From Bacteroidia bacterium (lineage in GTDB: Bacteria > Bacteroidota > Bacteroidia > AKYH767-A > OLB10), in the NCBI GenBank assembly GCA_016788065.1, contig JAEUTI010000096.1, forward strand, positions 122,065-186,064: a stretch of 64,000 nucleotides of DNA, in the 5' to 3' direction. Both the position numbers and the translations under genes were made by a program. The notes under the pieces were generated by a model. It searched no databases and had not been told where the DNA came from. It was given only the letters and a program-made list of their open reading frames with translations. Shown in pieces: positions 4,635-41,923 of this stretch (the stretch's first letter is position 1; each line of letters opens with the position of its first letter).

Positions 4635-5909
4635 ATGTTACAAATTAATGTCATCAGAGATCAGAAAGAGGAAGTAATCGCCCGTTTGGGAATCAAAAAT
4701 TTTCCTGCAAAAGAATTGATAGATAATGTATTAGAAATCGACAGCCAACGACGCACCACTCAATCGGAACTCGATAACCTGTTGGCTGCTCAAAATACCC
4801 TTGCAAAGCAGGTTGGCGATCTGTTTAAATCGGGCAAACAAGCTGAAGCAAATGACCTTAAAAACAAGAGCACTGCTTTAAAAGAAGAAAGCAAATTATT
4901 AGGAGACCGATTGACGGAATTGGAAAAACAAATGAATGACATTTTGTACCGTATTCCAAACCTTCCATCAGCTGTGGTTCCCGCAGGCAAAACACCTGAA
5001 GATAATGAAATCGTTTTTCAGTCGATATCCACACTTCCTGATCCGGGACCGGATGCACTTCCACACTGGGAGCTTGCTGCCAAATATGATTTGATCGATT
5101 TTGAACTTGGAGTAAAACTTACCGGTGCAGGATTTCCTGTCTACAAAGGTAAATGCGCGAAACTGCAACGTGCTTTGATCAATTTCTTCCTTAACCGTGC
5201 TTCAGAAGCCGGATATCTGGAAGTGCAACCACCGATTATGGTAAATGAAGATTCCGGTTTTGGTACAGGACAGCTTCCTGATAAAGAAGGCCAGATGTAT
5301 CATGTTGGAATCGATAATTTATATCTGATCCCTACAGCTGAAGTTCCTGTCACCAACATATTCAGAGATGAAATTCTGAAAAGTGAAGATTTACCGGTTA
5401 AAATGACTGCCTACACTCCGTGTTTTAGAAGAGAGGCCGGTTCTTATGGTAAAGATGTAAGAGGTCTGAACCGCTTACACCAATTCGATAAAGTTGAAAT
5501 TGTTCAGGTGGCCAATCCCTCCAATTCCTACCAGATACTTGAAGAAATGCGAAATTACGTTGCCGGATTAATAGGGGAATTGGGCCTTCCTTACCGTACT
5601 TTAAAATTGTGTGGCGGAGATATGAGTTTTGCTTCAGCTTTGACTTATGATATGGAAGTTTGGTCGGCTGCACAGAAAAGATGGTTAGAGGTTAGCTCTG
5701 TTTCGAACTTTGAAACCTTCCAGTCGAATCGTTTAAAACTACGTTATCGTGAAGGAAGCAACAAACCTCAACTGGCGCATACACTAAATGGCAGTGCTCT
5801 GGCGTTACCTAGAATTGTGGCTGCATTACTTGAAAATAATCAGACACCGGAAGGCATTCGTATTCCATCGGTGCTGGTTCCATATACCGGATTTGATTTA
5901 ATAAACTGA
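4635..5909 (+). CDS. serS: Seryl-tRNA synthetase
   Basis: Charges tRNA-Ser with serine. The 424-residue protein begins MLQINVIRDQKEEV; an in-frame upstream TTG at 4587 coincides with the promoter's -33 element and is rejected. Residues about 30-105 form the long antiparallel coiled-coil arm that binds the tRNA long variable loop. The class II catalytic core follows: motif 2 around FRREAGSYGKDVRGLNRLHQF and motif 3 around LNGSALALPRIVAALLEN, with the serine-binding TAEVPVTN segment. Length and motif order are standard. The downstream TPR gene overlaps its stop codon (TGATG). Confidence 0.97.
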   Translation: MLQINVIRDQKEEVIARLGIKNFPAKELIDNVLEIDSQRRTTQSELDNLLAAQNTLAKQVGDLFKSGKQAEANDLKNKSTALKEESKLLGDRLTELEKQMNDILYRIPNLPSAVVPAGKTPEDNEIVFQSISTLPDPGPDALPHWELAAKYDLIDFELGVKLTGAGFPVYKGKCAKLQRALINFFLNRASEAGYLEVQPPIMVNEDSGFGTGQLPDKEGQMYHVGIDNLYLIPTAEVPVTNIFRDEILKSEDLPVKMTAYTPCFRREAGSYGKDVRGLNRLHQFDKVEIVQVANPSNSYQILEEMRNYVAGLIGELGLPYRTLKLCGGDMSFASALTYDMEVWSAAQKRWLEVSSVSNFETFQSNRLKLRYREGSNKPQLAHTLNGSALALPRIVAALLENNQTPEGIRIPSVLVPYTGFDLIN

Positions 5910-25726: not shown

Positions 25727-28402
25727 TTAAAGAATGATGAATTTTCCGGAGCCGAATCTTTTGCCATTCATTTGGAGGTGAAATAAATATACACCGGGGG
25801 CTTTATTCTCAAATCTAAAACCATAAATTGCCTGACCGCTATCGAGAGAAAGAGGAGTCAAGCTAAAATCTGTAATCATTCTTCCAGTCAGATCGGTGAT
25901 AATCATTTCGGGCGAAATACCATTTCCTATATCTGGGTGCACTACAAGCAAACGTGATTCATTTTTAAAGGGATTGGGGAATATATTGGTATAACCATAA
26001 GAATCTGCCTGGACTTCATTCAGTGCATCAAAGAAATCGACAAAAGCACCATCACATTTCAGGCACAGATTATCATCGGCAACACAAAGCGAATAGAAAC
26101 CTGTGAGTACACTATCAATAGTCATGGATCCAAGCCCCCCAGGATTCCACAAATAGGAATAAGGAGGTGTGCCTCCGGTAACAATAGCCGTCAGTGAACC
26201 ATCTGCACAGGTTGCACAGGAAGCATTGGTAACCTGAAATGCAATACTGATGGAATCAGGTTCAATAATAGTTGTGGTATTTGAATTTGTACATCCGGTA
26301 ATATCGGTAACTGTAACAGTATAGGTACTGGCACAAAGATTAAGCACCTGTTCTGTAGTAGGTCCGTGTGACCACTGGTATGAATAACCGGGAGAACCGC
26401 CAAAGGCAAAAACATCAATAAACCCATCACACTCACCATTACAGGTAATATCGAGTTGTGTTAATGACACATTGATTGGCAATGGTGAATTTATAAAAAC
26501 GGAATCCTGATATGAACAGCCTGCAACAGTGATATCAACCGCAGTAAAACCGGGACAAATTCCAGAAACTGAAGTACCATATTGAACAGGCGATGTTTGC
26601 CATTCATAAATATAACTACCGGGTGCAGATGGGAAGATTACTGCTGCACCATCGCAAAGAGTCCCACAGGAAGCATCAACAGAATTGAAAGAAAATAAAA
26701 TTTCATCAGGTGAATCAATGAAAACAAAATCTAATACAGAGCAGCCTGCGGAATCCGTTATTGTAAGCTCATAATTACCGGTGCACAAACCGGTTACTGT
26801 ATCGGTAAAAGAAGGTGGAATTGTATTCCATGAATAGGAAAGTGGTGAATTTCCCGTGGCAATTACAGAGGCAACTCCATCACAACTTCCATAACAACTG
26901 ACCGCATTAGCTGTAACTGCATGAGTGATGGGATTATCAAAATCAACAGTCACTTCACCGGTTACAATACAGCCGGAAGAATCGACCAGCAAAACATCGT
27001 AATCGCCATAACACAAATTTGTTGCTATAAGGGAATTTTGAACAGGAGATGTATTCCAGCTAACATTCCATTCGCTTACAAACGGTACATCAACTGTTGC
27101 TGTACCATCACAAATAGCATTACAAGTTGCATCTGTAGTGGAGAAATTAAGTAACGTGCCGGGCACTTCAACTGAAGTAATGGTGGCACATCCGGTGGAA
27201 TCGGTGATAGTTACTGCATAAATTCCGGGACACAAAGCAGAATCAGCTTCAGTGGTTGATCCTGTCTGCCATAAATAGGTGAATGGAGGAATTCCACCTG
27301 CACTGATTATAGTTGCACTTCCGGTACAAAAATTATTACAGATGGCTGGGGAAGTCACAAACTGAATTGCAGGTGGCAATGGATCATCAACAATAACAGA
27401 ATCGAGATAAGTACAACCGGACAACACATCAATGACAGTCAGATAGTAAACTCCGGCACATAAATTAACAGCAGTATCATTCACCTGAACAGGTAAAGTA
27501 CTCCATTCGTACAGGTATGAACCGGGAGTATTAACAGTTGCAATCGCCTGCCCGGTGCAGGTGCCTGCGCACACAGGAGAAGTCACTGTTGTTGCGATGG
27601 AGGGTGGCGCATCTACTCCAATAATAACATCACCGGAGACCTGACATCCTGTTGAATCCTGTACAGTAACAGTATAAGGTCCAGCACATAATCCAACAGC
27701 AGTTTGTGTTTGCTGAATTGGTCCTGTCGACCAGGAATAGGTAAATGGAGGAATTCCATTAGCAACGACAGTTGCTGTTCCATTGCAAGAGCTGAGGCAT
27801 GTTGAATTTTCGAATGCCAGATTTAACGAAAACGGGTCATCGAATCCAACTTCTTCGGTTTCAGTTATAGAACAACCGGAAGGATCAGTAACAACCACTG
27901 CATAAATACCCTGGCAAATATTTCCTAATGTGGGAGTAGTATTTGCAAAACCGGGCCATTGAAAGAGATAGCTTACAGTAGTATCAACAGGAACTACTGT
28001 AAGAAATCCGGAGCAACCGCCGGGGCAAGAAGTATTGCCGACTAAAAATGAAATTTGAATGGGAGCAGGTTCAATTATATCAAATAATGCAGATGAAGTA
28101 CAACCTGTTGAATCAGTGATCACCACTTCATAGGTTCCGGGGCAGAGATTAGAAACAACGGAAGAATTAGCTCCGGGAATATCGGGGTAGGAATAAGTAA
28201 GTGGACCGACACCTGTGGCGAATACAGCAACACTTCCATTACAATCGCCATAGCAAAGAGGTTGCTGAATGGAGACAGAATCTATAGTGCAACCACCGGC
28301 TCCCGATGCTAAAGACTTTTGAACACTGCAAAGAAGAACCAAAATGGTAAAAACTCGCAGAGTATGAACTTTAAAGAAATTAAAATAAAAAGGACGAAGC
28401 AT
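25727..28402 (-). CDS. Ten-repeat, cysteine-rich SprB-repeat protein with T9SS type A domain
   Basis: An 891-residue secreted protein. A hydrophobic signal (about 14-33) is followed by ten SprB-type repeats of about 73 residues. Unlike the two-cysteine repeats of the giant adhesin nearby, most units here carry four cysteines: a CxxxC or similar pair near the start (as in TCNGECDG), one in an LCAGxY turn and one in a DSTGC turn. That gives about 40 cysteines, which suggests a disulfide-stapled rod outside the cell. The last 95 residues (IFPNPFKNESRLLVVHP to FGSGKFIIL) are a T9SS type A sorting domain. Its promoter -7 element lies at 28435-28442. It is probably a surface adhesin or filament; the binding target is unknown. 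Confidence 0.87.
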   Translation of the reverse strand: MLRPFYFNFFKVHTLRVFTILVLLCSVQKSLASGAGGCTIDSVSIQQPLCYGDCNGSVAVFATGVGPLTYSYPDIPGANSSVVSNLCPGTYEVVITDSTGCTSSALFDIIEPAPIQISFLVGNTSCPGGCSGFLTVVPVDTTVSYLFQWPGFANTTPTLGNICQGIYAVVVTDPSGCSITETEEVGFDDPFSLNLAFENSTCLSSCNGTATVVANGIPPFTYSWSTGPIQQTQTAVGLCAGPYTVTVQDSTGCQVSGDVIIGVDAPPSIATTVTSPVCAGTCTGQAIATVNTPGSYLYEWSTLPVQVNDTAVNLCAGVYYLTVIDVLSGCTYLDSVIVDDPLPPAIQFVTSPAICNNFCTGSATIISAGGIPPFTYLWQTGSTTEADSALCPGIYAVTITDSTGCATITSVEVPGTLLNFSTTDATCNAICDGTATVDVPFVSEWNVSWNTSPVQNSLIATNLCYGDYDVLLVDSSGCIVTGEVTVDFDNPITHAVTANAVSCYGSCDGVASVIATGNSPLSYSWNTIPPSFTDTVTGLCTGNYELTITDSAGCSVLDFVFIDSPDEILFSFNSVDASCGTLCDGAAVIFPSAPGSYIYEWQTSPVQYGTSVSGICPGFTAVDITVAGCSYQDSVFINSPLPINVSLTQLDITCNGECDGFIDVFAFGGSPGYSYQWSHGPTTEQVLNLCASTYTVTVTDITGCTNSNTTTIIEPDSISIAFQVTNASCATCADGSLTAIVTGGTPPYSYLWNPGGLGSMTIDSVLTGFYSLCVADDNLCLKCDGAFVDFFDALNEVQADSYGYTNIFPNPFKNESRLLVVHPDIGNGISPEMIITDLTGRMITDFSLTPLSLDSGQAIYGFRFENKAPGVYLFHLQMNGKRFGSGKFIIL

Positions 28403-29777: not shown

Positions 29778-31697
29778 TTATCGAATCAGTTCCAGAATTT
29801 TAATCTCGACGCGATTATTAACGGCATGATCTTCTTCCAGACACAAAACCCCATCGCGGCAATAGTTCAGCAACTTTCCTTCACCATAACCAATGGAAAT
29901 AATTCTTGGTGCATTGATACCTTTATTAATCAGATACATCGCAATTTCATCCGATCGTTTACGTGACAGCAACAAATTCTCAGTGAATGATCCTCTGGAA
30001 TCGGTGTGACATCCTATTTCGATCTGTATTTCAGGATTTATCTCCAACAAATTGACAAGAGAATCCAAGGCAGCTACAGACTCGGGTGTGTACTCCACTT
30101 TCTTTCCCTTGAATACAATTGAGCGCCAAATTGCAGGCTTTTTCAGATCAATAGGAGTTAAAACAAGGGAGTCGGAAAACACCTGAGATTTTCGTATTCC
30201 TTTTGTAGAAATGAAAACCGGTTCTGCATAAAAGCCATTTGATTTGACATACATTTTATAATCTGTATTTCCGGTCAATGGCATCTCCAGTAAATGATTT
30301 ACAGAAGTTGCTAAAACAATGGCATTGCCATTTGGAGTTGGAGCATACAACGAGAAACTACGAATAGATTTCTTAGTTTTTCCATCGGAGGCTTTCAATG
30401 AAACAGAATAAACCGGAGGATTTCTTTTAAAAGAATAAATTTTGTCAGTATTCTTTATTCTGTTAGAGGAGAAAAATCCGGAAGTATTGGTGCTGTCAAT
30501 TATAAACCCGAAATCATCTTTAGAAGAATTTACAGGCACCTGAAGGTTTTCAACTTTCGACCAGGTTTCACCATCCCAGGAAGAAGCAAAAATATCAAGA
30601 CCACCCAATCCTATGTGTCCGTCGGATGCAAAATACATCACCGAGTCAGGAGCAAAAAACGGAAACATTTCATTCCCTTCCGTATTAATTTTCGGTCCCA
30701 GATTTTCAGGTGTCGACCATTGACCGTTTTTTAGAGTAACTTTATACAAATCCGTTCCACCATATCCCCAGGGCATATCGGAAACAAAATACACTGATTT
30801 TCCATCGGGAGAAATTGCAGGGTGACCTACTGAATAATCGGGGCTATTAAATGGCAATTGATTTTCCAGTTTCCATTGGTTTCCGTACAACTTTCCATAA
30901 TATAGTTTGAGTACGCTTATATCCTTCTGATTTTTCTCGATTGTTTTTCCTGAATAATCGGAACGGGTAAAATATATAGTAGTATTATCCTTTGAAAATA
31001 CGGCAGGACCTTCATCATAGATACCATTGATATCGCCTTTAAGCAATTCTGGTTCCAACCAATTTTCGCCATCGGTTTTGCGTGTAAAGAAGAGGTCGAG
31101 ATATTCTTTACCGGTCCATGAACTACGGTCTCGTGGTTTACCCGGTGCAGAACGATCGGATAGAAAAACAATTCCCTGACGATAAAAAGCAGGACTGAAA
31201 TTATTCTCCAAATCCTTGTTTAACTTAGTGAGGGAGATGGCATAAACAGTTGTGTCGAGAAGAAACAAATGAATAGAATCACATGCTTCAATCATACGTT
31301 TCACTCTTTTATCGGATGCATCCAATTTTTGATATTCACTAAACCAATATCTTGCTTCTGAATACTTGGCATTTTCCATCAGAACTTCAGCAAGTCTGAG
31401 TTTATATTCAGGAATGGCATCAGGTGCTTTCACTAATCTTTTGTACCAGATTTCCGCTTTGAGCGAATTTCCATTCTTCTGATAACTATCTGCAAGTTTA
31501 GCGGCAGCATCTGTTATAAAAGCTTTTCGAAGTACTTTTTCGAAGTTAGGAATAGCACGGGCAAATGCGTATTGCTCATAATAATTATTGGCAACTCTGT
31601 AATTGTATTTGGTACAACCACTAAATACAATTGAAACCACAAAAAATGCGGCAACAAAATAAAATGCGGATTTAAATTTCCTTACAAAAGTGATCAT
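29778..31697 (-). CDS. PorE-like OmpA-family lipoprotein of the T9SS adhesin cassette
   Basis: A 639-residue envelope protein. A lipobox gives acylated Cys28 (IVFSGCTKYN). Next come TPR-type helices (about 32-150), a PD40/WD40-like beta-propeller (about 165-420, with repeats such as HPAISPDGKSVYFVSDM), a carboxypeptidase-regulatory-like beta-sandwich (about 430-520), and an OmpA C-terminal peptidoglycan-binding domain (about 528-639). The OmpA domain has EIGCHTDSRGS and the diaminopimelate-contact ending NNRVEIK. This domain order matches PorE, the T9SS-linked lipoprotein of Porphyromonas. It starts 2 bp after the PorP/SprF gene and probably tethers the adhesin export complex to the cell wall. 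Confidence 0.88.
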   Translation of the reverse strand: MITFVRKFKSAFYFVAAFFVVSIVFSGCTKYNYRVANNYYEQYAFARAIPNFEKVLRKAFITDAAAKLADSYQKNGNSLKAEIWYKRLVKAPDAIPEYKLRLAEVLMENAKYSEARYWFSEYQKLDASDKRVKRMIEACDSIHLFLLDTTVYAISLTKLNKDLENNFSPAFYRQGIVFLSDRSAPGKPRDRSSWTGKEYLDLFFTRKTDGENWLEPELLKGDINGIYDEGPAVFSKDNTTIYFTRSDYSGKTIEKNQKDISVLKLYYGKLYGNQWKLENQLPFNSPDYSVGHPAISPDGKSVYFVSDMPWGYGGTDLYKVTLKNGQWSTPENLGPKINTEGNEMFPFFAPDSVMYFASDGHIGLGGLDIFASSWDGETWSKVENLQVPVNSSKDDFGFIIDSTNTSGFFSSNRIKNTDKIYSFKRNPPVYSVSLKASDGKTKKSIRSFSLYAPTPNGNAIVLATSVNHLLEMPLTGNTDYKMYVKSNGFYAEPVFISTKGIRKSQVFSDSLVLTPIDLKKPAIWRSIVFKGKKVEYTPESVAALDSLVNLLEINPEIQIEIGCHTDSRGSFTENLLLSRKRSDEIAMYLINKGINAPRIISIGYGEGKLLNYCRDGVLCLEEDHAVNNRVEIKILELIR

Positions 31698-31699
31698 AA

Positions 31700-32623
31700 T
31701 TAAAAATACCTTGGTGTTTTCATTTTCAACACATTGAAACCAAAGTCATATCCTATTACAATTTCATGTGATCCGGATGAATAACTTCTGATTTCTGAGA
31801 GTGTATAATCGTAGGAATATCCAACTCTCAATTTCTTATTAACCTGGTATTCGAGAATGGCTGTGATGGCATCCGAAGAGCGATAGGAAGCTCCTACCCA
31901 AATAATATCACTGATAAGCATATTCAAGTTAAGATCATACTGAAGCGGCGCATTAGATGCATATTTAACTAAAAAGGAAGGTCGGAATTTCAGCTCCCCA
32001 GCTGTGGCAATGATCATTCCGGAGGTTAAATAATAATGGCGGCTAACTTTATGAACTTTTTCTACTTCAACATGCAAAGGCTGATCGGGATCATAAGATA
32101 TTAACTGTGGAACAGATAAACCGGCATAGAACTTATTGGAATAGTAATATACTCCGGCACCAAAATTCGGTAAGATATTGCTAAGTGAGTTTGTTTCATA
32201 TACAGGATCATCGGTATCCCATACTGTTAATTCTGAAAACTTTGATTTGAAATAAGAGAAGCCACCGCTCAAACCCATAGATATTTTTCCGGTATTCATG
32301 GGGATATGGTAGGCATAGCTGCCATAAAAATCTGTTTGACTGGTAATCCCAATTTTATCGTTGGAAATTACTGCTCCCAGTCCGACTTTCTGATTATTCA
32401 GCGGGGCATGTAAACTTGCAATCTGAGATGAAGGTGCTCCTTCAAAGCCTGTCCATTGTTTTCTTGCAATAAGGGTTGTACTTACAAACTCTTTGCTTCC
32501 TGCATAGGCGGGATTAACAAACAATCCATTGAACATATAATGACTGAATAGCGGATGTTGTTGCGCGTTAACAGAAGCCGCAAACAATGCCATAACTATA
32601 AAAATATAAAATTTCTTTTTCAT
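31700..32623 (-). CDS. PorP/SprF family outer-membrane protein
   Basis: A 307-residue outer-membrane beta-barrel protein with a signal peptide ending at NAQQ. The family opening HPLFSHYMFNGLFVNPAYAG and TLIARKQWTGFEGAPSSQ are typical of the PorP/SprF family of type IX secretion. In Flavobacterium johnsoniae, SprF is needed for export of the giant adhesin SprB, whose type B C-terminal domain requires a neighbouring SprF-like partner. Here the gene follows the type B adhesin by 6 bp, the same pairing. It is inferred to be the dedicated partner of that adhesin. Confidence 0.9.
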   Translation of the reverse strand: MKKKFYIFIVMALFAASVNAQQHPLFSHYMFNGLFVNPAYAGSKEFVSTTLIARKQWTGFEGAPSSQIASLHAPLNNQKVGLGAVISNDKIGITSQTDFYGSYAYHIPMNTGKISMGLSGGFSYFKSKFSELTVWDTDDPVYETNSLSNILPNFGAGVYYYSNKFYAGLSVPQLISYDPDQPLHVEVEKVHKVSRHYYLTSGMIIATAGELKFRPSFLVKYASNAPLQYDLNLNMLISDIIWVGASYRSSDAITAILEYQVNKKLRVGYSYDYTLSEIRSYSSGSHEIVIGYDFGFNVLKMKTPRYF

Positions 32624-32629
32624 GGTTAT

Positions 32630-35600
32630 TTATCTTCTGATATCGACATAAGTTGTAATAATCCGGTTTATACTTCTAACCTTAAAGATTACGAAATAAG
32701 TACCGGCAGCAAGTGGTTCTCCTTTTTCATTTACACCATCCCAATCATTTCGGTATCCTGATTTTTCCCAAACCTGATTTCCCCAACGGTTATAAACAAC
32801 AATTGAATTATCGGGATAATCATCGAGACCTTTAACGAAGAAGTAATCATTTTTACCATCACCATTAGGAGTAAATCCATTTGGCAATTCTAGAGTTTCG
32901 ATACATTCAGAAGGATCCTTCACAAAAATTACCAGGTCGGCGGAATCACTACAAGTACCATTTATCACGATCCATTTGAATACATTGGGTCCGGGGTTTA
33001 ATCCTGTTGCAATAGTGACGGCACTCGTGGAATCGGCGATTGTAGCATCACTGTTTACGATTTGCCAGTAGCCAAATCCAAACTGAGGAGCGGTTGCATT
33101 CAACAAAACAGAATCGGCACAAATATCACGGTTCACACCTGCGATTGCCTGAATTTGGGTGTTATATGAAATTACCACCTGCGAAAATGCAGAGCAAATT
33201 CCATCTGTTACTACCCACTGGAATACATTCGCACCATTTGCCAAATTAGTGACAACTGTGTTTGCCTGAGTTGAATCAGCAAATGTTGCACTACCGCTTA
33301 CAATAAGCCAATATCCACTTCCTATTGCAGGAGGATTTGCTGCAAGGGTATCAGAATTAATTCCACAAATTACTTTATTAGGACCCGCATTAGATATTAA
33401 TAATGGTGGTTGAGTCAAGGTGTATGAAGAAGATCCTGTGCATCCCTGAGCATCTGTAACTGTTACAGTATAAATACCTGCTGCGAGACTACCAATACTG
33501 TCAGTTTGTGCAAAATTGCTCCAAAGATAAGTATATGGCTGAGTTCCACCGGAAGGCAACACCTGGATACTTCCATCATTACTTCCATTACAAGTAAGGT
33601 TAAATGTTCCATTCAGCACAGGAACAAATGCATTGATTGAAATTGGATCCGGTTCATCGATATACACGGACTGAATGGCAACACAGCCCGTTGCATCCGT
33701 GATTGTTAAAGTATATGTGAGATCTCCGGGAAGGTTGGTAATCTGATTTCCGGTTTGAGAGGTATTACTCCAACCATAAGTGTATGGGAAAGTACCTCCC
33801 GAAACATTCACTATGATAAATCCATCGTTGGCTCCTGCACAGGTTACACTTCCTGAATCAATAACTGTAATTTCAGGAGCAGAGATATTACTGATTGTTG
33901 GCGAGAATACTTTATCGCAACCATTCGCATCGGTTACTGTCAATGTGTAAACTCCAGCTGCCAAACCTCCAATATTTGGAGTAATGGCTCCGGTACTCCA
34001 TAAGAAATCATAACCGGGAACACCGCCATTAATTGTTGTTGTAATTGAACCGTTATTACCATTACATGTTGCATCATTTACAACAAATGAAGAAGTAATA
34101 TCAGTTGGCTGTGTGAGTGTATTTGAATAAGTAGCAGTACAAGAATTCTGATCTGTCACTGTAACTGTATAAGCACCGGCAACTACGCCAGTTAAATCCT
34201 GCACCTGAGTGAGATTAGACCACAAATAGGTATAAGGAAGTGCACCACCAGAAACTGTAATATAAATACCACCTGTTGACGCTCCGAAACATTTTACATT
34301 TACAACGCTGTCAACTGCAATAACAGGACCACCAATATTATTCACCGTGTAGGTAGCGTTTTTGGTGCAACCATTTAAATCGGTGATGGTAACTGTATAG
34401 GAATTAGCTGAGAGTGTATTAATTGTTTGAGATACAGAACCGGTATTCCACAAATAAGAATATCCGGGAGTTCCTCCATATGGATAAATTGTAATGGAAC
34501 CATTAGAACCACCACAAGTTGCATCAACTACTGTAGCAGAATCTGCAAGTGCCGTTGGCTCAATAATTACGAAGGATTGGTTTTGCTGGCAAAGTCCACC
34601 ATCTGTGATGGTAACAGAATAGTTTCCTGCAATGAGTCCTGTCACATCTTCTGTATTTGCACCATTTGACCACAGGTAAGTATAAGGAGTTGTTCCACCA
34701 GTAAGCGTTAAATAAATGGCTCCTGTTGCAGCACCAAAACATTTCACATCAACAACACTATCAACAACTGCTGTAGGCCCTCCAATATCATTCACAATTC
34801 CTGAAACAGTAATTGAACATCCATTGAAGTCGGAAACAGTAACGGTGTAAGTACCGGAAGCTAAATTTGTAGCCGATTGAGTAAGTTGACCATCACTCCA
34901 CAAATAAGAATACGGACCGATACCACCAGAAGGATAAACTGTTACAGACCCATTTGACTGACTACAGAATGCATCAACAACAACCGTTGAATCGTTTACT
35001 AAAATGTCAGGTTCAGCAATCACAAAACTTTGAATCACGGAACAGCCAGCAGCAGTCACTGTCACGGTATAGTTACCGGGACCCAATCCTGTCACATCCT
35101 GGGTAACTGCTCCATTTGACCACAAATAGGTATATGCTGGCGCAGATCCATTCACAGTTATATAAACACTTCCATCCGCCAGGCCATTACAACTCACATC
35201 AAATACACTATCGATCTGAATTACCTGAGCAGGAACAGCAGTGATTGTAACAGAATCTATTAAAGTACAGGAATTATCATCTGTAACAGTGACAATGTAA
35301 AGTCCTGGAGCAAGATTCACTGCAGTCTGGTTGGTTTGACCATTAGACCACAAATAACTATACCCGGGAGTACCACCGTAAGGGAATACTTTCGCTGAAC
35401 CGTTCGCAAGATTACAAGTTGCAGGATTAAAGTTTAAGGAATCCTGAAGTGCATCCGGTTCAGTTACAGTAAAGAATGCAGTATCACGACACACAAAATT
35501 ATCGGCAACGATCAGTGAATAGTTACCGGCCTGAAGAGAAGAAATATCCTGTGTTATCTGACCATTCGACCATTGATAAGTATATGGAATAGTTCCTCCA

Positions 35601-38600
35601 TTAACAGATACATAAATTCCACCATCACTTAAACCATTACATGAAACATTTACCAGCGAATCGAGTGTAATTTGAGGTGCTCCTGAAAGTGCCACAACAT
35701 AACTGCTGACTTTTGTACAATTATTCAAATCAGTTATTGTGACAGTATAGGTGCCTGATGTTAAACCAGAAATTGTTGTTGTTATATCTCCGGTATTCCA
35801 TAGCACATCATATGGTGCTGTTCCTCCGAATGGATAAACTGTAATCTCTCCGTTGGCACTTCCACATGCTTCCGGGGTAACTGAAGCAGAATCATTGAGG
35901 ACTGAAGGCTGACTAATAATACCGGACAAAGTAGTTGTACAATTATTGAAGTCCCTTACCGTAACTGTATAAGTACCGGATACTACATTTGTGAGATCCT
36001 GAGTGATTGCACCACCTGTCCACAGATAAGTGTACGGAATAGTTCCTCCGGAAGGAGTGATATAAATTGCCCCATTATTTAAACCGAAACACGATACATT
36101 ATCGACTGAATCAATAACAGCAGTTGGACCGCCAACTCCTGAAACCGTAGCTGTATTAATAAGTGTACACCCGTTATTATCGGTGACAGTGACAGTATAG
36201 GTACCTGCTGCAAGATTGCTTATGGTTGCTGTGCCGGCACCGGTGTTCCATAAATAAGTGTATGGATTAGTACCTCCAAATGCAACTGTAGTAATGGCTC
36301 CATTTGAGAGTCCGCATGTCGCATTAGTTACAATCATTGAATCCTGCAGTTGTGTAGGCTGTGTTATTGTTCCGCTGAATATAACAATACAATTGTTAAA
36401 GTCGGTTATGGTTACTGTGTAAGTTCCTGCTCCAACATTTGTCAGATCCTGAGTTAAAGCACCATTAGACCAAAGATAAGTGTATGGGTTTGTGCCACCT
36501 GTGACGGTAATAAATATGCCACCGGTAGTTCCGCCAAAGCATCTTACATTACGAATAGAATCGACTGCAACGACAGGTCCTCCTGTACTGCTGATATTAG
36601 CAAAATCCACTTTAGTACATCCGAAACCATCGGTAACGGTAACAGTGTAAGTTCCTGCAACAAGATTAAAAATTGTGTTGGTTGTCTGACCATTACTCCA
36701 AAGCACTGTATAAGGAGGTGTGCCTCCATAGGGGAATACGGTTGCATTTCCTGTAGGAGCACCGCAATTTGCAGAAGCCACCTGAATAGAATCATTCAGC
36801 GCAGGTGATTGACCGATTGTTGCAGATAATGTAGAAGAACAAGAATTTGTATCGGTAATGGTAACTGTATATGTACCGGCAATGACATTGAGCAAATCCT
36901 GAGTTAATGCACCATTCGACCACAGATAAGAAAACGGAGTGGCACTACCTGAAACTGAAATGAAAATTGCACCGGTACTTGCACCATTGCACCTAACGTT
37001 TCTAACTGAATCAATTACACCAACAGGTCCACTGATATTTCCCACAACTGCAACAGCTGATTTAGTACACAAATTAGCATCTCTAACAGTCACGGTATAA
37101 CTACCGGCTGCAAGTGAATTAATGGTGGCGGTTGTTTGACCATTACTCCATAAATAAGTATAAGTTCCTGCACCGCCTGAGGGTGTTACTGTAGCACTAC
37201 CATTTGCCAATCCGCATGTGGCACTATTAGTTGAGACCGGAGCAAGTAAAGCTGAAGGTTGAGAAACGGTTGAGTCAGCAACGGAAGTGCATAGATTAGC
37301 ATCTGTTACAGTGACTGTATAATTGCCGGCTAACACATTTGTAATATCCTGGGTAAGGGCACCATTCGACCACAGATATGTAAAAGGAGCTAATCCACCA
37401 TTCACAGAGATGTAAACTGCTCCGGTGGCATTTCCATTACAATTAACGTTACGAACTGAATCTATCACAGCAACAGGTAATCCTATTGCACTTACCGTGG
37501 TTGTTCTGATTTTACTACACAGCCTGGCATCTCTGACAGTTACTGTGTATGTACCTGAAGCAAGATTGCTTAAAGAGGATGTTGTTGCGCCGGTATTCCA
37601 TAAGTAGGTATATGGTGATGTTCCTCCAAAAGGAAACACTGCAATTGATCCATTATTCTGTCCGCAAGTTGGAGATGTTACCTGGACAGAATCATTTAAA
37701 GCTAGTGGCTGAGTAACTGTTCCGGAAGCAGTAGCTGTGCAGCCATTGGCATCAGTAGCAGTAACAGTATAAGTTCCCGCAATCACATTGACTAAATCGA
37801 AAGTTACTGCACCATTCGACCATAATGCAGTTCTTGGTGCGGTACCTCCTAATATTGAAATATACACTGCACCGGTCGCTCCTCCAAAACATGAAACATT
37901 TCTGATTGAATCTACAACCACAGATGGTCCGGTAGCATTTGCAATAGTCACAGTTCTTGTTTTGACACAAAGATTAAAATCACGTATAGTAGCAGTATAA
38001 ACACCGGGAGTTAATCCGGATATTGAGGAGGTTGTTTGTCCGCTATTCCATAAATATGTGTAAGGTGCTGTTCCTCCATAGGAAAAAATTGTTGCAGATC
38101 CGTTTGCTACACCACAGGTAGCTGGCGAAAATTGGACTGAATCGGCTAACACAGCAGGCTGCGTAATAGTAGTATCAAATATTGCCTGACAAGAACTAAA
38201 ATCGGTAACTGTAACAGTATAGGTTCCTGCTACAACATTATTTATGTCTTGCGTGACAGCACCGTTCGACCATAAATAAGTATATGGTGACAATCCGCCA
38301 CTCACACTTATGAATACTCCACCAGTTGCAGTTCCGCTGCATCGGGCATTGCGAACAGAATCAGCCACAATAACAGGAGCTCCGATATTGCTGACATTCA
38401 CAGACCTTTGTTTGGTACATAAATTTGCATCAGTTACAGTAACACTGTAAACAGCCGCACTGAGTCCGGAAATAGTTTGTGTCGTTTGAGCGGTATTCCA
38501 CAGATAAGTATATGGGCCCGTGCCTGCAAAAGGAAAAATGGTAATACTTCCATTCGTACTTCCACAAGTAGCATTAGTTACCTGAACAGAATCGTTCAAT

Positions 38601-41600
38601 GCAAGTGGTTGTGTTACGATAGCACTTTGCGTGGATGAACATAAATTCGCATCTCTAACTGTAACAGTGTATGTTCCTGCAACTACATTGCTGATATCTT
38701 GTGTGATAGCACCATTCGACCATAAATAAGTATAAGGACTAACACCACCACTCGCAGAAATAAACACACCGCCGGTTGCTCCGCCATTACAACGAACAGC
38801 TCGAACAGAATCGACAGCAATGATTGGTGAACCGGTGTTTAAAACTGTAGAAGTTCGTTGACGCGTACAAAGATTGGCATCGGTAATGGTTACAGTATGA
38901 CTGCCTGCTGCTAATGATGAAATAGTTGCAGTAGTCTGCGTATTACTCCAAAGGTAGGTATAAGGCGATGTACCATTGTATGGAAAAACAGTAATGCTTC
39001 CATTATTTGATCCACAAGTTGCATTAGTTACCTGAACAGAATCGTTCAGTGCAACTGGTTGTGTTACGATAGCACTTTGCGTGGATGAACATAAATTCGC
39101 ATCTCTAACCGTAACAGTATATGTTCCTGCAACAACATTGTTGATATCTTGTGTGATAGCACCATTCGACCATAAATAGGTGTAAGGTGTAACACCACCG
39201 CTTGCAGAAATAAACACACCGCCGGTTGCTCCGCCATTACAACGAACAGCACGAACGGAATCTACTGCAATGACAGGTGATCCGGTGTTTAAAACCGTAG
39301 ATGTACGTTGACGGGTACACAGATTGGCATCGGTAATAGTTACGGTATAACTGCCTGCTGCCAATGATGAGATAGTTGCAGTAGTCTGCGTATTACTCCA
39401 AAGGTAGGTATATGGCGATGTCCCGTTGTATGGAAAAACAGTAATGCTTCCATTATTTAATCCACAAGTTGCATTGGTTACCTGAACAGAATCGTTCAAT
39501 GCAACTGGTTGTGTTACGATTGCGCTCTGCGTGGATGAACATAAATTAGCATCTCTAACTGTAACAGTGTAAGTTCCTGCAACAACATTGCTGATGTCTT
39601 GTGTGATTGCACCATTCGACCAAATATAAGTATAAGGAGAGACACCACCGCTTGCAGAAATAAACACGCCTCCGGTTGCTCCGCCATTACAGCGAACGGC
39701 ACGAACCGAATCAACAGCAATAACAGGTGATCCGGTGTTAATTACTGTGGATGTACGTTGACGGGTACAAAGATTGGCATCGGTGATAGTTACAGTATAA
39801 CTGCCTGCTGCCAATGATGAAATAGTTGAAGAAGTCTGAGCATTGCTCCACAGGTAGGTATATGGTGATGTACCATTGTATGGAAAAACAGTGATACTTC
39901 CATTATTTAAACCACATGTAGCATTTGTCACCTGAACAGAATCGTTCAAGGCGACAGGTTGTGTCACAATAGCACTTTGCGTGGATGAACATAAGCTCGC
40001 ATCCGTAACAGTTACGGTGTATGTTCCTGCTACAACATTACTGATGTCTTGAGTTATGGCACCATTCGACCATAAATAAGTATATGGTGTGACACCACCA
40101 CTTGCAGAAATAAACACTCCACCGGTTGCTCCGCCATTACAGCGAACAGCACGAACGGAGTCGATAGCAATAACAGGTGATCCGGAATTCAGGACGGTGG
40201 CGGTACGCTGACGAGTACAAAGATTTGCATCGGTAATAGTTACTGTATAGGTTCCTGCAGTCAGCGATGAAATAGTTGCCGTGGTTTGGGTGTTACTCCA
40301 TAGATAGGTATAAGGAGAAGTGCCATCATAAGGAAAAACAGTAATGCTTCCATTATTCAAGCCACAAGCGGCATTGGTAATCTGTACAGAATCATTGAGG
40401 GCAAGTGGCTCTGTGATGGTCACAGGTAATGTAGCAGTACATAGATCAGCATCTGTAACAGTAACTGTATAAGTTCCGGCTTGCAAACCATTAATATCAT
40501 CAACTATTGCACCATTGGACCACAAATAATCGAAGGGTGCAGTACCATCCTGAACTGAAATAAAAATCGCACCTGTTGATCCACCATTACATAAAACATT
40601 TTGAACAGAATCAACAATAATTTGGGGAGGATCAATAGCATTGAGCTGAATAGTTTCAACATCAGTGCAACCAAGTGAATCTGTGATGGTACAGGTATAA
40701 TTTCCTGCGAGAAGATTTGTTAGTGATGCATTGGTGCTTCCATCTGACCATAAATAGGTAACCGGACCAGTCCCGCCGGTAAATGTTGTATTCAACTCAC
40801 CATTTGCAGTTGCACATGTTGCTTCCTGCTGTGTTATTGACAACTCCAGTAAATCGGGTTCGGTAATTACAAACGATTGCGTTGCAGTACACAAGGAAAG
40901 ATCTGTAATTGTAACAGTATATGTACCGGCAATAAGGTTAGTTACATCTTGTGTAATTGCTCCATTAGACCATTGATATAATACAACAGGGATCGCAGCA
41001 AAAACATCAATGTAAATTGCACCATCATTGCCACCATTACAAGAAACATTAAAGACCGAATCAGTAACAATCTGACAAGCACCTAAAGCATTCTGTACAA
41101 CAGTATCAGCAACAATTGAACAACCACTATTATCTGTTATGGTTACTGTGAAAGTCCCAGGAAGTAATCCCGTCAATCCGGAAGTAATATCACTGGTCGA
41201 CCATAAAAAACTATAACCGCCGGTGCCTCCGGTTGGAGTACATGTGATTTCACCATTTGGAGCTCCATTGGCATCTGTCACAGCAAAATTCGGCCGTATA
41301 ATTTCAGGTTCGGTAATGACAGTATCCACTTGAGCTGGACAGTTGTTAACGTCTGTTAAATTCAACAAGTAAGTTCCCGGTCCAAGAGAATCAATATCTT
41401 CACTTAATTCACCATTTGACCAACCATACACATATGGACCAAGTCCACCAACGACTTCCAATGAAATTGATCCATCATCAAAAGAAAAACATGTGACATT
41501 AGAAACTGAAACGACATTAATATTTATTGGAGGTGGCTGTAAAACTTCAACAGAATCAACAACTGTATCCTGTGCAGCATCAATCACAGTAACCACATAT

Positions 41601-41923
41601 ACTCCTGCACCGATAGCTGCTAAGTCTTCTGTGGTTTCACCATTTGACCAAAGTATGTTAAATGGCAATGCTCCACCAGTAATTTCCATGTTAATAGATG
41701 CATCTGTGGCACCATTGCATGAAACAGCAAAGCCATTGTAATCACTTAATGAAAAAGTTAATGTAAAACTTGCTGCGTTACTAGCAACCGGTACATCTGG
41801 TTTTGGATTTGCTTGAACTGCAACACTAAAAAAAAGTGCTAACATGCAACAAACTGTTGCAGCAAGTATTCTTATCCTGATGTTAAAATTGTGATAAAAC
41901 TTAATAGGGTAATAAAAACTCAT
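32630..41923 (-). CDS. Giant SprB-repeat adhesin with T9SS type B C-terminal domain
   Basis: A 3097-residue cell-surface protein. A signal peptide (about 18-38, ending VQANP) is followed by about 37 SprB repeats (about 45-2830), each near 75 residues with the pattern CNG..xGxIxIxxxGGxxPYTYLWSNG...LxAGTYTVTVTDxxxC. Repeats alternate between two types, so the real unit is a pair of 150 residues. Two PKD/Ig-like domains follow (about 2840-3005; IGSGYWLIVSGSATF and FGFGYWQIVNSDATI). The end is a type B gliding-motility-type C-terminal domain (LPNGFTPNGDGKNDYFFVKG, YNRWGNQVWE, LAAGTYFVIFK). It is exported by the T9SS with the SprF-family gene immediately downstream. The role is probably adhesion or gliding-type motility; the rest of the gliding machinery is not in this window. 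Confidence 0.92.
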   Translation of the reverse strand: MSFYYPIKFYHNFNIRIRILAATVCCMLALFFSVAVQANPKPDVPVASNAASFTLTFSLSDYNGFAVSCNGATDASINMEITGGALPFNILWSNGETTEDLAAIGAGVYVVTVIDAAQDTVVDSVEVLQPPPININVVSVSNVTCFSFDDGSISLEVVGGLGPYVYGWSNGELSEDIDSLGPGTYLLNLTDVNNCPAQVDTVITEPEIIRPNFAVTDANGAPNGEITCTPTGGTGGYSFLWSTSDITSGLTGLLPGTFTVTITDNSGCSIVADTVVQNALGACQIVTDSVFNVSCNGGNDGAIYIDVFAAIPVVLYQWSNGAITQDVTNLIAGTYTVTITDLSLCTATQSFVITEPDLLELSITQQEATCATANGELNTTFTGGTGPVTYLWSDGSTNASLTNLLAGNYTCTITDSLGCTDVETIQLNAIDPPQIIVDSVQNVLCNGGSTGAIFISVQDGTAPFDYLWSNGAIVDDINGLQAGTYTVTVTDADLCTATLPVTITEPLALNDSVQITNAACGLNNGSITVFPYDGTSPYTYLWSNTQTTATISSLTAGTYTVTITDANLCTRQRTATVLNSGSPVIAIDSVRAVRCNGGATGGVFISASGGVTPYTYLWSNGAITQDISNVVAGTYTVTVTDASLCSSTQSAIVTQPVALNDSVQVTNATCGLNNGSITVFPYNGTSPYTYLWSNAQTSSTISSLAAGSYTVTITDANLCTRQRTSTVINTGSPVIAVDSVRAVRCNGGATGGVFISASGGVSPYTYIWSNGAITQDISNVVAGTYTVTVRDANLCSSTQSAIVTQPVALNDSVQVTNATCGLNNGSITVFPYNGTSPYTYLWSNTQTTATISSLAAGSYTVTITDANLCTRQRTSTVLNTGSPVIAVDSVRAVRCNGGATGGVFISASGGVTPYTYLWSNGAITQDINNVVAGTYTVTVRDANLCSSTQSAIVTQPVALNDSVQVTNATCGSNNGSITVFPYNGTSPYTYLWSNTQTTATISSLAAGSHTVTITDANLCTRQRTSTVLNTGSPIIAVDSVRAVRCNGGATGGVFISASGGVSPYTYLWSNGAITQDISNVVAGTYTVTVRDANLCSSTQSAIVTQPLALNDSVQVTNATCGSTNGSITIFPFAGTGPYTYLWNTAQTTQTISGLSAAVYSVTVTDANLCTKQRSVNVSNIGAPVIVADSVRNARCSGTATGGVFISVSGGLSPYTYLWSNGAVTQDINNVVAGTYTVTVTDFSSCQAIFDTTITQPAVLADSVQFSPATCGVANGSATIFSYGGTAPYTYLWNSGQTTSSISGLTPGVYTATIRDFNLCVKTRTVTIANATGPSVVVDSIRNVSCFGGATGAVYISILGGTAPRTALWSNGAVTFDLVNVIAGTYTVTATDANGCTATASGTVTQPLALNDSVQVTSPTCGQNNGSIAVFPFGGTSPYTYLWNTGATTSSLSNLASGTYTVTVRDARLCSKIRTTTVSAIGLPVAVIDSVRNVNCNGNATGAVYISVNGGLAPFTYLWSNGALTQDITNVLAGNYTVTVTDANLCTSVADSTVSQPSALLAPVSTNSATCGLANGSATVTPSGGAGTYTYLWSNGQTTATINSLAAGSYTVTVRDANLCTKSAVAVVGNISGPVGVIDSVRNVRCNGASTGAIFISVSGSATPFSYLWSNGALTQDLLNVIAGTYTVTITDTNSCSSTLSATIGQSPALNDSIQVASANCGAPTGNATVFPYGGTPPYTVLWSNGQTTNTIFNLVAGTYTVTVTDGFGCTKVDFANISSTGGPVVAVDSIRNVRCFGGTTGGIFITVTGGTNPYTYLWSNGALTQDLTNVGAGTYTVTITDFNNCIVIFSGTITQPTQLQDSMIVTNATCGLSNGAITTVAFGGTNPYTYLWNTGAGTATISNLAAGTYTVTVTDNNGCTLINTATVSGVGGPTAVIDSVDNVSCFGLNNGAIYITPSGGTIPYTYLWTGGAITQDLTNVVSGTYTVTVRDFNNCTTTLSGIISQPSVLNDSASVTPEACGSANGEITVYPFGGTAPYDVLWNTGDITTTISGLTSGTYTVTITDLNNCTKVSSYVVALSGAPQITLDSLVNVSCNGLSDGGIYVSVNGGTIPYTYQWSNGQITQDISSLQAGNYSLIVADNFVCRDTAFFTVTEPDALQDSLNFNPATCNLANGSAKVFPYGGTPGYSYLWSNGQTNQTAVNLAPGLYIVTVTDDNSCTLIDSVTITAVPAQVIQIDSVFDVSCNGLADGSVYITVNGSAPAYTYLWSNGAVTQDVTGLGPGNYTVTVTAAGCSVIQSFVIAEPDILVNDSTVVVDAFCSQSNGSVTVYPSGGIGPYSYLWSDGQLTQSATNLASGTYTVTVSDFNGCSITVSGIVNDIGGPTAVVDSVVDVKCFGAATGAIYLTLTGGTTPYTYLWSNGANTEDVTGLIAGNYSVTITDGGLCQQNQSFVIIEPTALADSATVVDATCGGSNGSITIYPYGGTPGYSYLWNTGSVSQTINTLSANSYTVTITDLNGCTKNATYTVNNIGGPVIAVDSVVNVKCFGASTGGIYITVSGGALPYTYLWSNLTQVQDLTGVVAGAYTVTVTDQNSCTATYSNTLTQPTDITSSFVVNDATCNGNNGSITTTINGGVPGYDFLWSTGAITPNIGGLAAGVYTLTVTDANGCDKVFSPTISNISAPEITVIDSGSVTCAGANDGFIIVNVSGGTFPYTYGWSNTSQTGNQITNLPGDLTYTLTITDATGCVAIQSVYIDEPDPISINAFVPVLNGTFNLTCNGSNDGSIQVLPSGGTQPYTYLWSNFAQTDSIGSLAAGIYTVTVTDAQGCTGSSSYTLTQPPLLISNAGPNKVICGINSDTLAANPPAIGSGYWLIVSGSATFADSTQANTVVTNLANGANVFQWVVTDGICSAFSQVVISYNTQIQAIAGVNRDICADSVLLNATAPQFGFGYWQIVNSDATIADSTSAVTIATGLNPGPNVFKWIVINGTCSDSADLVIFVKDPSECIETLELPNGFTPNGDGKNDYFFVKGLDDYPDNSIVVYNRWGNQVWEKSGYRNDWDGVNEKGEPLAAGTYFVIFKVRSINRIITTYVDIRR
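33631..41730 (-). repeat. Tandem 450-bp coding repeats of the giant adhesin
   Basis: Equivalent positions recur every 450 bp exactly from 34081 to 41281 (for example 36331, 36781, 37231, 37681, 38131, 38581, 39031, 39481, 39931, 40381, 40831). Each unit codes for two SprB repeats. The copies from about 38581 to 40380 are the closest: 6 mismatches in the first 120 aligned columns between the units at 38581 and 39031. Units at either end are strongly diverged but keep the same length. The region left of 34081 loosely continues the pattern with small insertions. Confidence 0.9.

Follow-up and report, generated by a model that had tools for sequence, protein, structure and literature searches.

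Introduction

The locus described here is best compared with the SprB and Fjoh_3952 systems of F. johnsoniae, with GhpA of Aureispira sp. CCB-QB1, and with the periscope proteins. SprB of F. johnsoniae is a protein of 6497 aa (PMC9870892, PMC12635249), and the Cys-X-Cys tail of its shuttle SprF is required for attachment to the moving track (PMC12635249). Fjoh_3952 is a type B substrate encoded with the shuttle Fjoh_3951 and the PorE-like protein Fjoh_3950; it is found in static foci only, and a PorE-like gene is not encoded with moving substrates in this organism (PMC12618676). GhpA, for which several structures are available (PDB 9flp, 9fls, 9fly and others), is 5898 aa long and forms a hook, parts of which the PDB titles call neck and base. 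Periscope proteins are rods of tandem folded domains whose repeat number differs among relatives, and their highly identical repeats vary between strains. In large multidomain proteins adjacent domains are usually less than 50% identical, which is thought to limit misfolding (a rule cited by PMC8201768).

Domain architecture and genomic neighborhood

We analyzed a window of 64,000 nucleotides, the whole stretch of DNA under study, from the genome of a Bacteroidia bacterium (contig JAEUTI010000096.1). In the product of its giant gene, a hydrophobic N-terminus is followed by 37 SprB-type domains, then by two Ig-like domains of another type and finally by a type B C-terminal domain (CTD) (Table 1). 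The SprB repeat profile PF13573 matches 36 stretches of the protein with 1014.8 bits against a curated cut-off of 28, and the C-terminus is recognized by both CHU_C (89.4 bits, cut-off 27) and TIGR04131 (48.1 bits, cut-off 35). All three hallmarks of an SprB-repeat T9SS type B surface protein (the repeats, the CTD and a downstream PorP/SprF gene) are present, and the giant protein is a Bacteroidota adhesin of an already known kind. Its repeats begin at approximately residue 60, and a distinct hook-like N-terminal region was not seen in it.

The repeats alternate between two types, referred to here as A and B. The two motifs by which the preliminary description had told alternating repeats apart, RCNGG...GVFISASGG and TCG..NGSITVFPY, were both found. 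An AlphaFold2 model of the arrangement A-B-A-B consists of four compact all-beta beads (pLDDT 96, pTM 0.65). Each bead within the register keeps two cysteines, one behind the first strand and one ahead of the last, a placement that would suit a disulfide in each bead.

The giant gene is followed by a PorP/SprF family shuttle gene and by a PorE-like gene, whose product scores 373 bits with the PorE model, below the curated NCBIfam cut-off of 600; nuoN and further nuo genes lie upstream. The order giant gene-porP-porE-like is kept in relatives, which are uncultured Bacteroidota, and it is identical in all 33 loci L118-L150; nuoN precedes the locus and rarA and murB follow it in several of them. 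Between rarA and murB the window also encodes, at 25727-28402, a shorter T9SS protein of 891 aa with a type A sorting domain and four SprB repeats.

Two properties of the locus bear on how the giant protein is held at the cell surface. The tail of the window shuttle (...KMKTPRYF) is without a Cys-X-Cys motif, and all 26 shuttles in the alignment have tails devoid of cysteine. Additionally, the operon contains a PorE-like gene, as does the static layout of the Fjoh_3952 kind. Together, these two properties suggest that the giant protein is a static, wall-anchored fibrillar adhesin and not a gliding SprB. A GldJ gene is found elsewhere in the genome, and gliding of the cell is therefore possible. 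The PorP-family gene beside gldJ (L112, G000:C1:36294-37250) encodes two cysteines close to the C-terminus (ECRPKKKRFRTISCPSF), without Cys-X-Cys.

Table 1. Features of the giant adhesin locus (positions within the window)
Feature	Position	Strand	Remarks
Giant T9SS type B adhesin gene	32630..41923	minus	3097 aa, 37 SprB-type (Ig-like) domains
Probable signal peptide (N-terminal hydrophobic stretch)	41810..41923	minus	read from the sequence alone
Two non-SprB Ig-like "base" domains	32894..33391, limits approximate	minus	homologs of the C-terminal region of GhpA
T9SS type B sorting signal at the C-terminus (CHU_C / TIGR04131)	32666..32890	minus	profile matches
Exact 450-bp (150-aa) register array	33881..41080	minus	units 2-17, one A and one B domain each
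Unit 1 Trp-to-Trp stretch	40970..41422	minus	register held by compensating 73/77 spacing
Compensating -1/+1 pair, unit 15	34991..35062, limits approximate	minus	TAAGC turn one shorter, next linker one longer
High-identity core	38609..40408	minus	four B-A units (B3A4, B4A5, B5A6, B6A7); protein 89-97%, dS 0.29-1.11
PorP/SprF family shuttle gene	31700..32623	minus	TIGR03519, 300 bits against 90.55; directly downstream of the giant gene
PorE-like gene	29778..31697	minus	PD40 propeller and OmpA domain; adjoins porP also in relatives

The 150-residue register

Over positions 34081-41731, DNA identity of the array to itself is 0.611 at a lag of 450 bp, 0.588 at 900 and 0.572 at 1350, and one base to either side of the 450-bp lag it falls to background (0.237 at lag 449, 0.232 at lag 451). 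The mean over lags 100-1499 is 0.257 (sd 0.032), and lag 450 stands 11 sd above it. In the protein, the step from the conserved Trp of an A domain to that of the next B domain is 74 residues and the step from B to the next A is 76, without exception from W318 to W2718; successive A-type Trp residues stand at intervals of 150 aa between W168 and W2718. The lag identities and the Trp spacing bear out the exact 450-bp register, free of net insertion or deletion, that the preliminary description had reported; the span given for it, 34081-41281, needed correction at one limit, the exact register reaching 33881, slightly past 34081.

The C1-W and W-C2 distances are 23 and 27 in A domains and 22 and 27 in B domains. 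These distances and the C2-C1 distance are fixed as well, with the exception of a single -1/+1 pair in unit 15, where W to C2 is 26 instead of 27 and the next linker is 26 instead of 25. An A-B pair always measures 150 aa because the C1-Trp distance of the B domain is one residue shorter than that of the A domain and the next linker compensates. In unit 1 the Trp intervals are 73 and then 77. A search for compensating indels thus yielded at least two -1/+1 pairs (units 1 and 15), and the net length is unchanged, with scarcely any change concealed within it.

This regularity accompanies considerable divergence. DNA identity among units 2-17 ranges from 47 to 91%, and the outer units, approximately 41-58% identical at the lowest and saturated at synonymous sites (pS 0.71), have nevertheless kept their length. 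Adjacent beads have a mean identity of 0.40, with 3% of neighbors above 0.5, and same-type beads two positions apart are up to 0.97 identical.

Comparison with other SprB arrays and with orthologs

We compared the window array with 36 other SprB arrays of at least ten domains each from this genome and its relatives. The 37 arrays are interrelated, were mostly found through their PorP neighbor and provide comparisons, not independent trials or a formal test against age. In the window array, 150-aa two-domain steps account for 91% of all steps, more than in any other array of the set, with a run of 31. At 50% identity or more, two units of the window array are always of equal length (150 of 150 pairs). 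The equal-length share at 50-60% identity is 81% in other orthologous A/B arrays, 67% in arrays with a 77-residue register and 22% in the remaining SprB arrays; three arrays at similar identity (L133, L139 and L102) drift in length. The 150 period is common to orthologs in other genera, and in the orthologous arrays the A/B alternation is visible as a C1-W distance of 23/22. The register shared by orthologs and the drift of similarly diverged SprB arrays support a constraint on the two-domain unit, one of the two targets of selection that had been proposed; the contrast of 150/150 with 22% and the alternation in orthologs both speak for it. The literature that we searched, a limited library, describes no two-type SprB register.

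Registers of other periods were also observed. A 4386-aa giant SprB-repeat gene in the same genome (L041, G000:C40:62000-81000) also shows the alternation, with spacings of 76/78 and then 77/79 residues and a register shift in mid-array. In L098 (G007) and L100 (G010), located on contigs with another PorP copy, the register is a single domain of 77 aa and neighbors are approximately 59% identical; low neighbor identity is thus not obligatory in SprB rods.

The other proposed target, the length of the rod, was not supported. Intact orthologs carry 28-39 domains, and one whose start is uncertain carries up to 46, a range that is between genera, the congeneric comparison consisting of one genome (G001) broken inside the array. 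Because orthologs carry about 28-46 domains, total rod length is not conserved, while unit length is, and selection on the total length was rejected on these differences.

Age of the high-identity core

The core of the array had been placed at about 38581-40380 and described as close to 95% alike, which had been taken to suggest recent duplication or conversion. TRF reports 4.1 copies at 38532-40393, and we adjusted the limits to four B-A units (38609-40408), which are 89-97% identical in protein and 81-93% in DNA. The figure of 95% is appropriate for the protein of units 4-6 (93-97%) but too high for their DNA (86-91%). Lag-450 DNA identity is 0.92 at 38581, 0.89 at 39031 and 0.82 at 39481. 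The longest exact repeat in the giant gene is 54 bp.

Among the core units dS is 0.29, 0.55-0.57 and 1.06-1.11 at successively earlier steps, with dN/dS of 0.04-0.06. Between this genome and the congeneric G001, dS is 0.57 over the orthologous N-terminal 620 codons and 1.12 for the porP fragment. The similarity of the core values to the congeneric dS of 0.57 indicates that the core copies are fairly old and not fresh duplicates, and recent duplication or conversion was rejected as the main reading of the core. Judging from these substitution estimates, the copies appear to have arisen stepwise, over a time comparable to the split from the congeneric species. Given the low dN/dS on copies of this age, their near-identity in amino acids is attributed mostly to purifying selection. 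In a quick tree of the units, in which most forks are unsupported and which serves as a basis for these two groupings only, units 1-3 pair by position between this genome (G000) and G001, and G004 has a separate group of near-identical units of its own. The congeneric porP fragment (L048, G001:C329:12472-12855) lies at a contig end and is interrupted in frame by a TAA, which may be an error of the contig end.

A proposed function and its alternatives

Taking the evidence as a whole, we consider it probable that the locus encodes a statically anchored fibrillar adhesin with a rod of 37 beads, the array of which has grown by 450-bp two-bead units. The chain would be exported through Sec and T9SS, presumably via the neighboring PorP/SprF shuttle, and would fold into a rod of 37 Ig-like beads in which the lengths of A and B are complementary, each A-B pair amounting to 150 residues. 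The PorE-like protein may tether the giant protein to peptidoglycan, and the rod could serve as an adhesive stalk. Growth of the array would have proceeded stepwise, entire 450-bp units of two beads being copied in frame, with unequal exchange as the likely process. Two bead types might be of advantage because copying in pairs lengthens the rod while neighbors stay dissimilar, and co-misfolding would be avoided. A much broader proposition can be formulated, namely that the A/B unit is a general solution of Bacteroidota giant adhesins (pair copying, neighbors below approximately 50%, lengths tuned to 150) and that the locus, common among uncultured Bacteroidota, assembles a static fiber related to the hook, with PorP and PorE as its base; in this full form it seems to us quite unlikely.

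The regular unit length could also have arisen with no special selection, by in-register copying that left too little time for indels, in which case young arrays would be exact and old ones would drift. This explanation is unlikely, although by no means negligible: exact registers with periods of their own do exist elsewhere (the 77-aa arrays L098 and L100 and the C40 gene), and the register of the C40 gene shifts once and is then fixed, as block copying would give. However, the saturated outer units of the window still hold their length, the equally identical arrays mentioned above fail to do so, and the 150 period is shared with orthologs in other genera. It is scarcely credible that the near-identical core is an artifact of assembly. 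While the congeneric assembly G001 does break at unit 4 and within porP, DNA differences between core units amount to 7-19%, a longest exact repeat of only 54 bp makes assembly collapse unlikely, and dS of 0.29-1.11 at dN/dS of 0.05 is not something that an assembler invents.

The nature of the fiber can be read differently as well. A gliding adhesin like SprB, drawn along tracks and with a rod length that sets its reach, would be in keeping with the SprB repeats, the type B CTD, the PorP/SprF neighbor and the GldJ gene in the genome. We nevertheless find it decidedly improbable: the cysteine is missing from the shuttle tail, the PorE-like gene in the operon marks static substrates in F. johnsoniae (PMC12618676), and the domain number varies among orthologs. 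A gliding SprB proper was rejected on the absent Cys-X-Cys tail. A fiber of the GhpA kind, in which several chains are bundled into a hooked appendage that catches other cells, is very improbable even though GhpA is the top PDB match by profile, Foldseek and VIA-align and the C-terminal 255 residues align with it end to end; the window protein is approximately half as long, its repeats begin at about residue 60 with no separate hook-like N-terminal region seen, and its C-terminal domains have counterparts in further T9SS proteins of this genome and its relatives. We retain the statically anchored fibrillar adhesin as the preferred reading.

Comparison with known systems

For the statically anchored adhesin, the Fjoh_3952/Fjoh_3951/Fjoh_3950 system offers a parallel in gene layout, the aspect compared here: in both, the gene of a substrate with a type B CTD is directly followed by a PorP/SprF shuttle gene and a PorE-like gene. 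Static localization, shown there, is proposed here from this layout. With SprB the window protein shares SprB repeats, a type B CTD and an adjoining PorP/SprF-family gene; it differs in its PorE-like partner, in the absence of the tail motif that is essential in SprF, and in being approximately half as long. The likeness to periscope proteins lies in a rod of tandem folded domains whose number differs among relatives; DNA identity, high between the repeats of such proteins, is here 81-93% in the four B-A units of the core and 47-91% across units 2-17. A protein search in phages returned whisker/fibritin proteins as well as a 642 kb metagenomic phage record without annotation, in which a stretch (LR756502.1:515494-517239) encodes protein 43% identical to the core units.

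The nearest solved fold is that of GhpA, which is the top PDB match of the unit profile (E 3.4e-13); Foldseek agrees, and VIA-align gives Z of 10.9-11.9. Plain phmmer with two core units against PDB found no real relative, and the beads of the two proteins are only approximately 20% identical. The alignment of the base domains and CTD with the C-terminus of GhpA runs from end to end (query 22-276, GhpA 5639-5898; best stretch 74.6 bits). Since C-terminal domains of this kind are also present in other T9SS proteins, the match is best taken as a sign of shared building blocks, not of a shared function or a hook. The array presents a clean, countable case of what fixes repeat length during sequence drift, as some SprB arrays hold their length and others do not, and the comparison connects a common, uncharacterized locus of Bacteroidota with two systems known from recent experiments, static adhesins of type B and the grappling hook.
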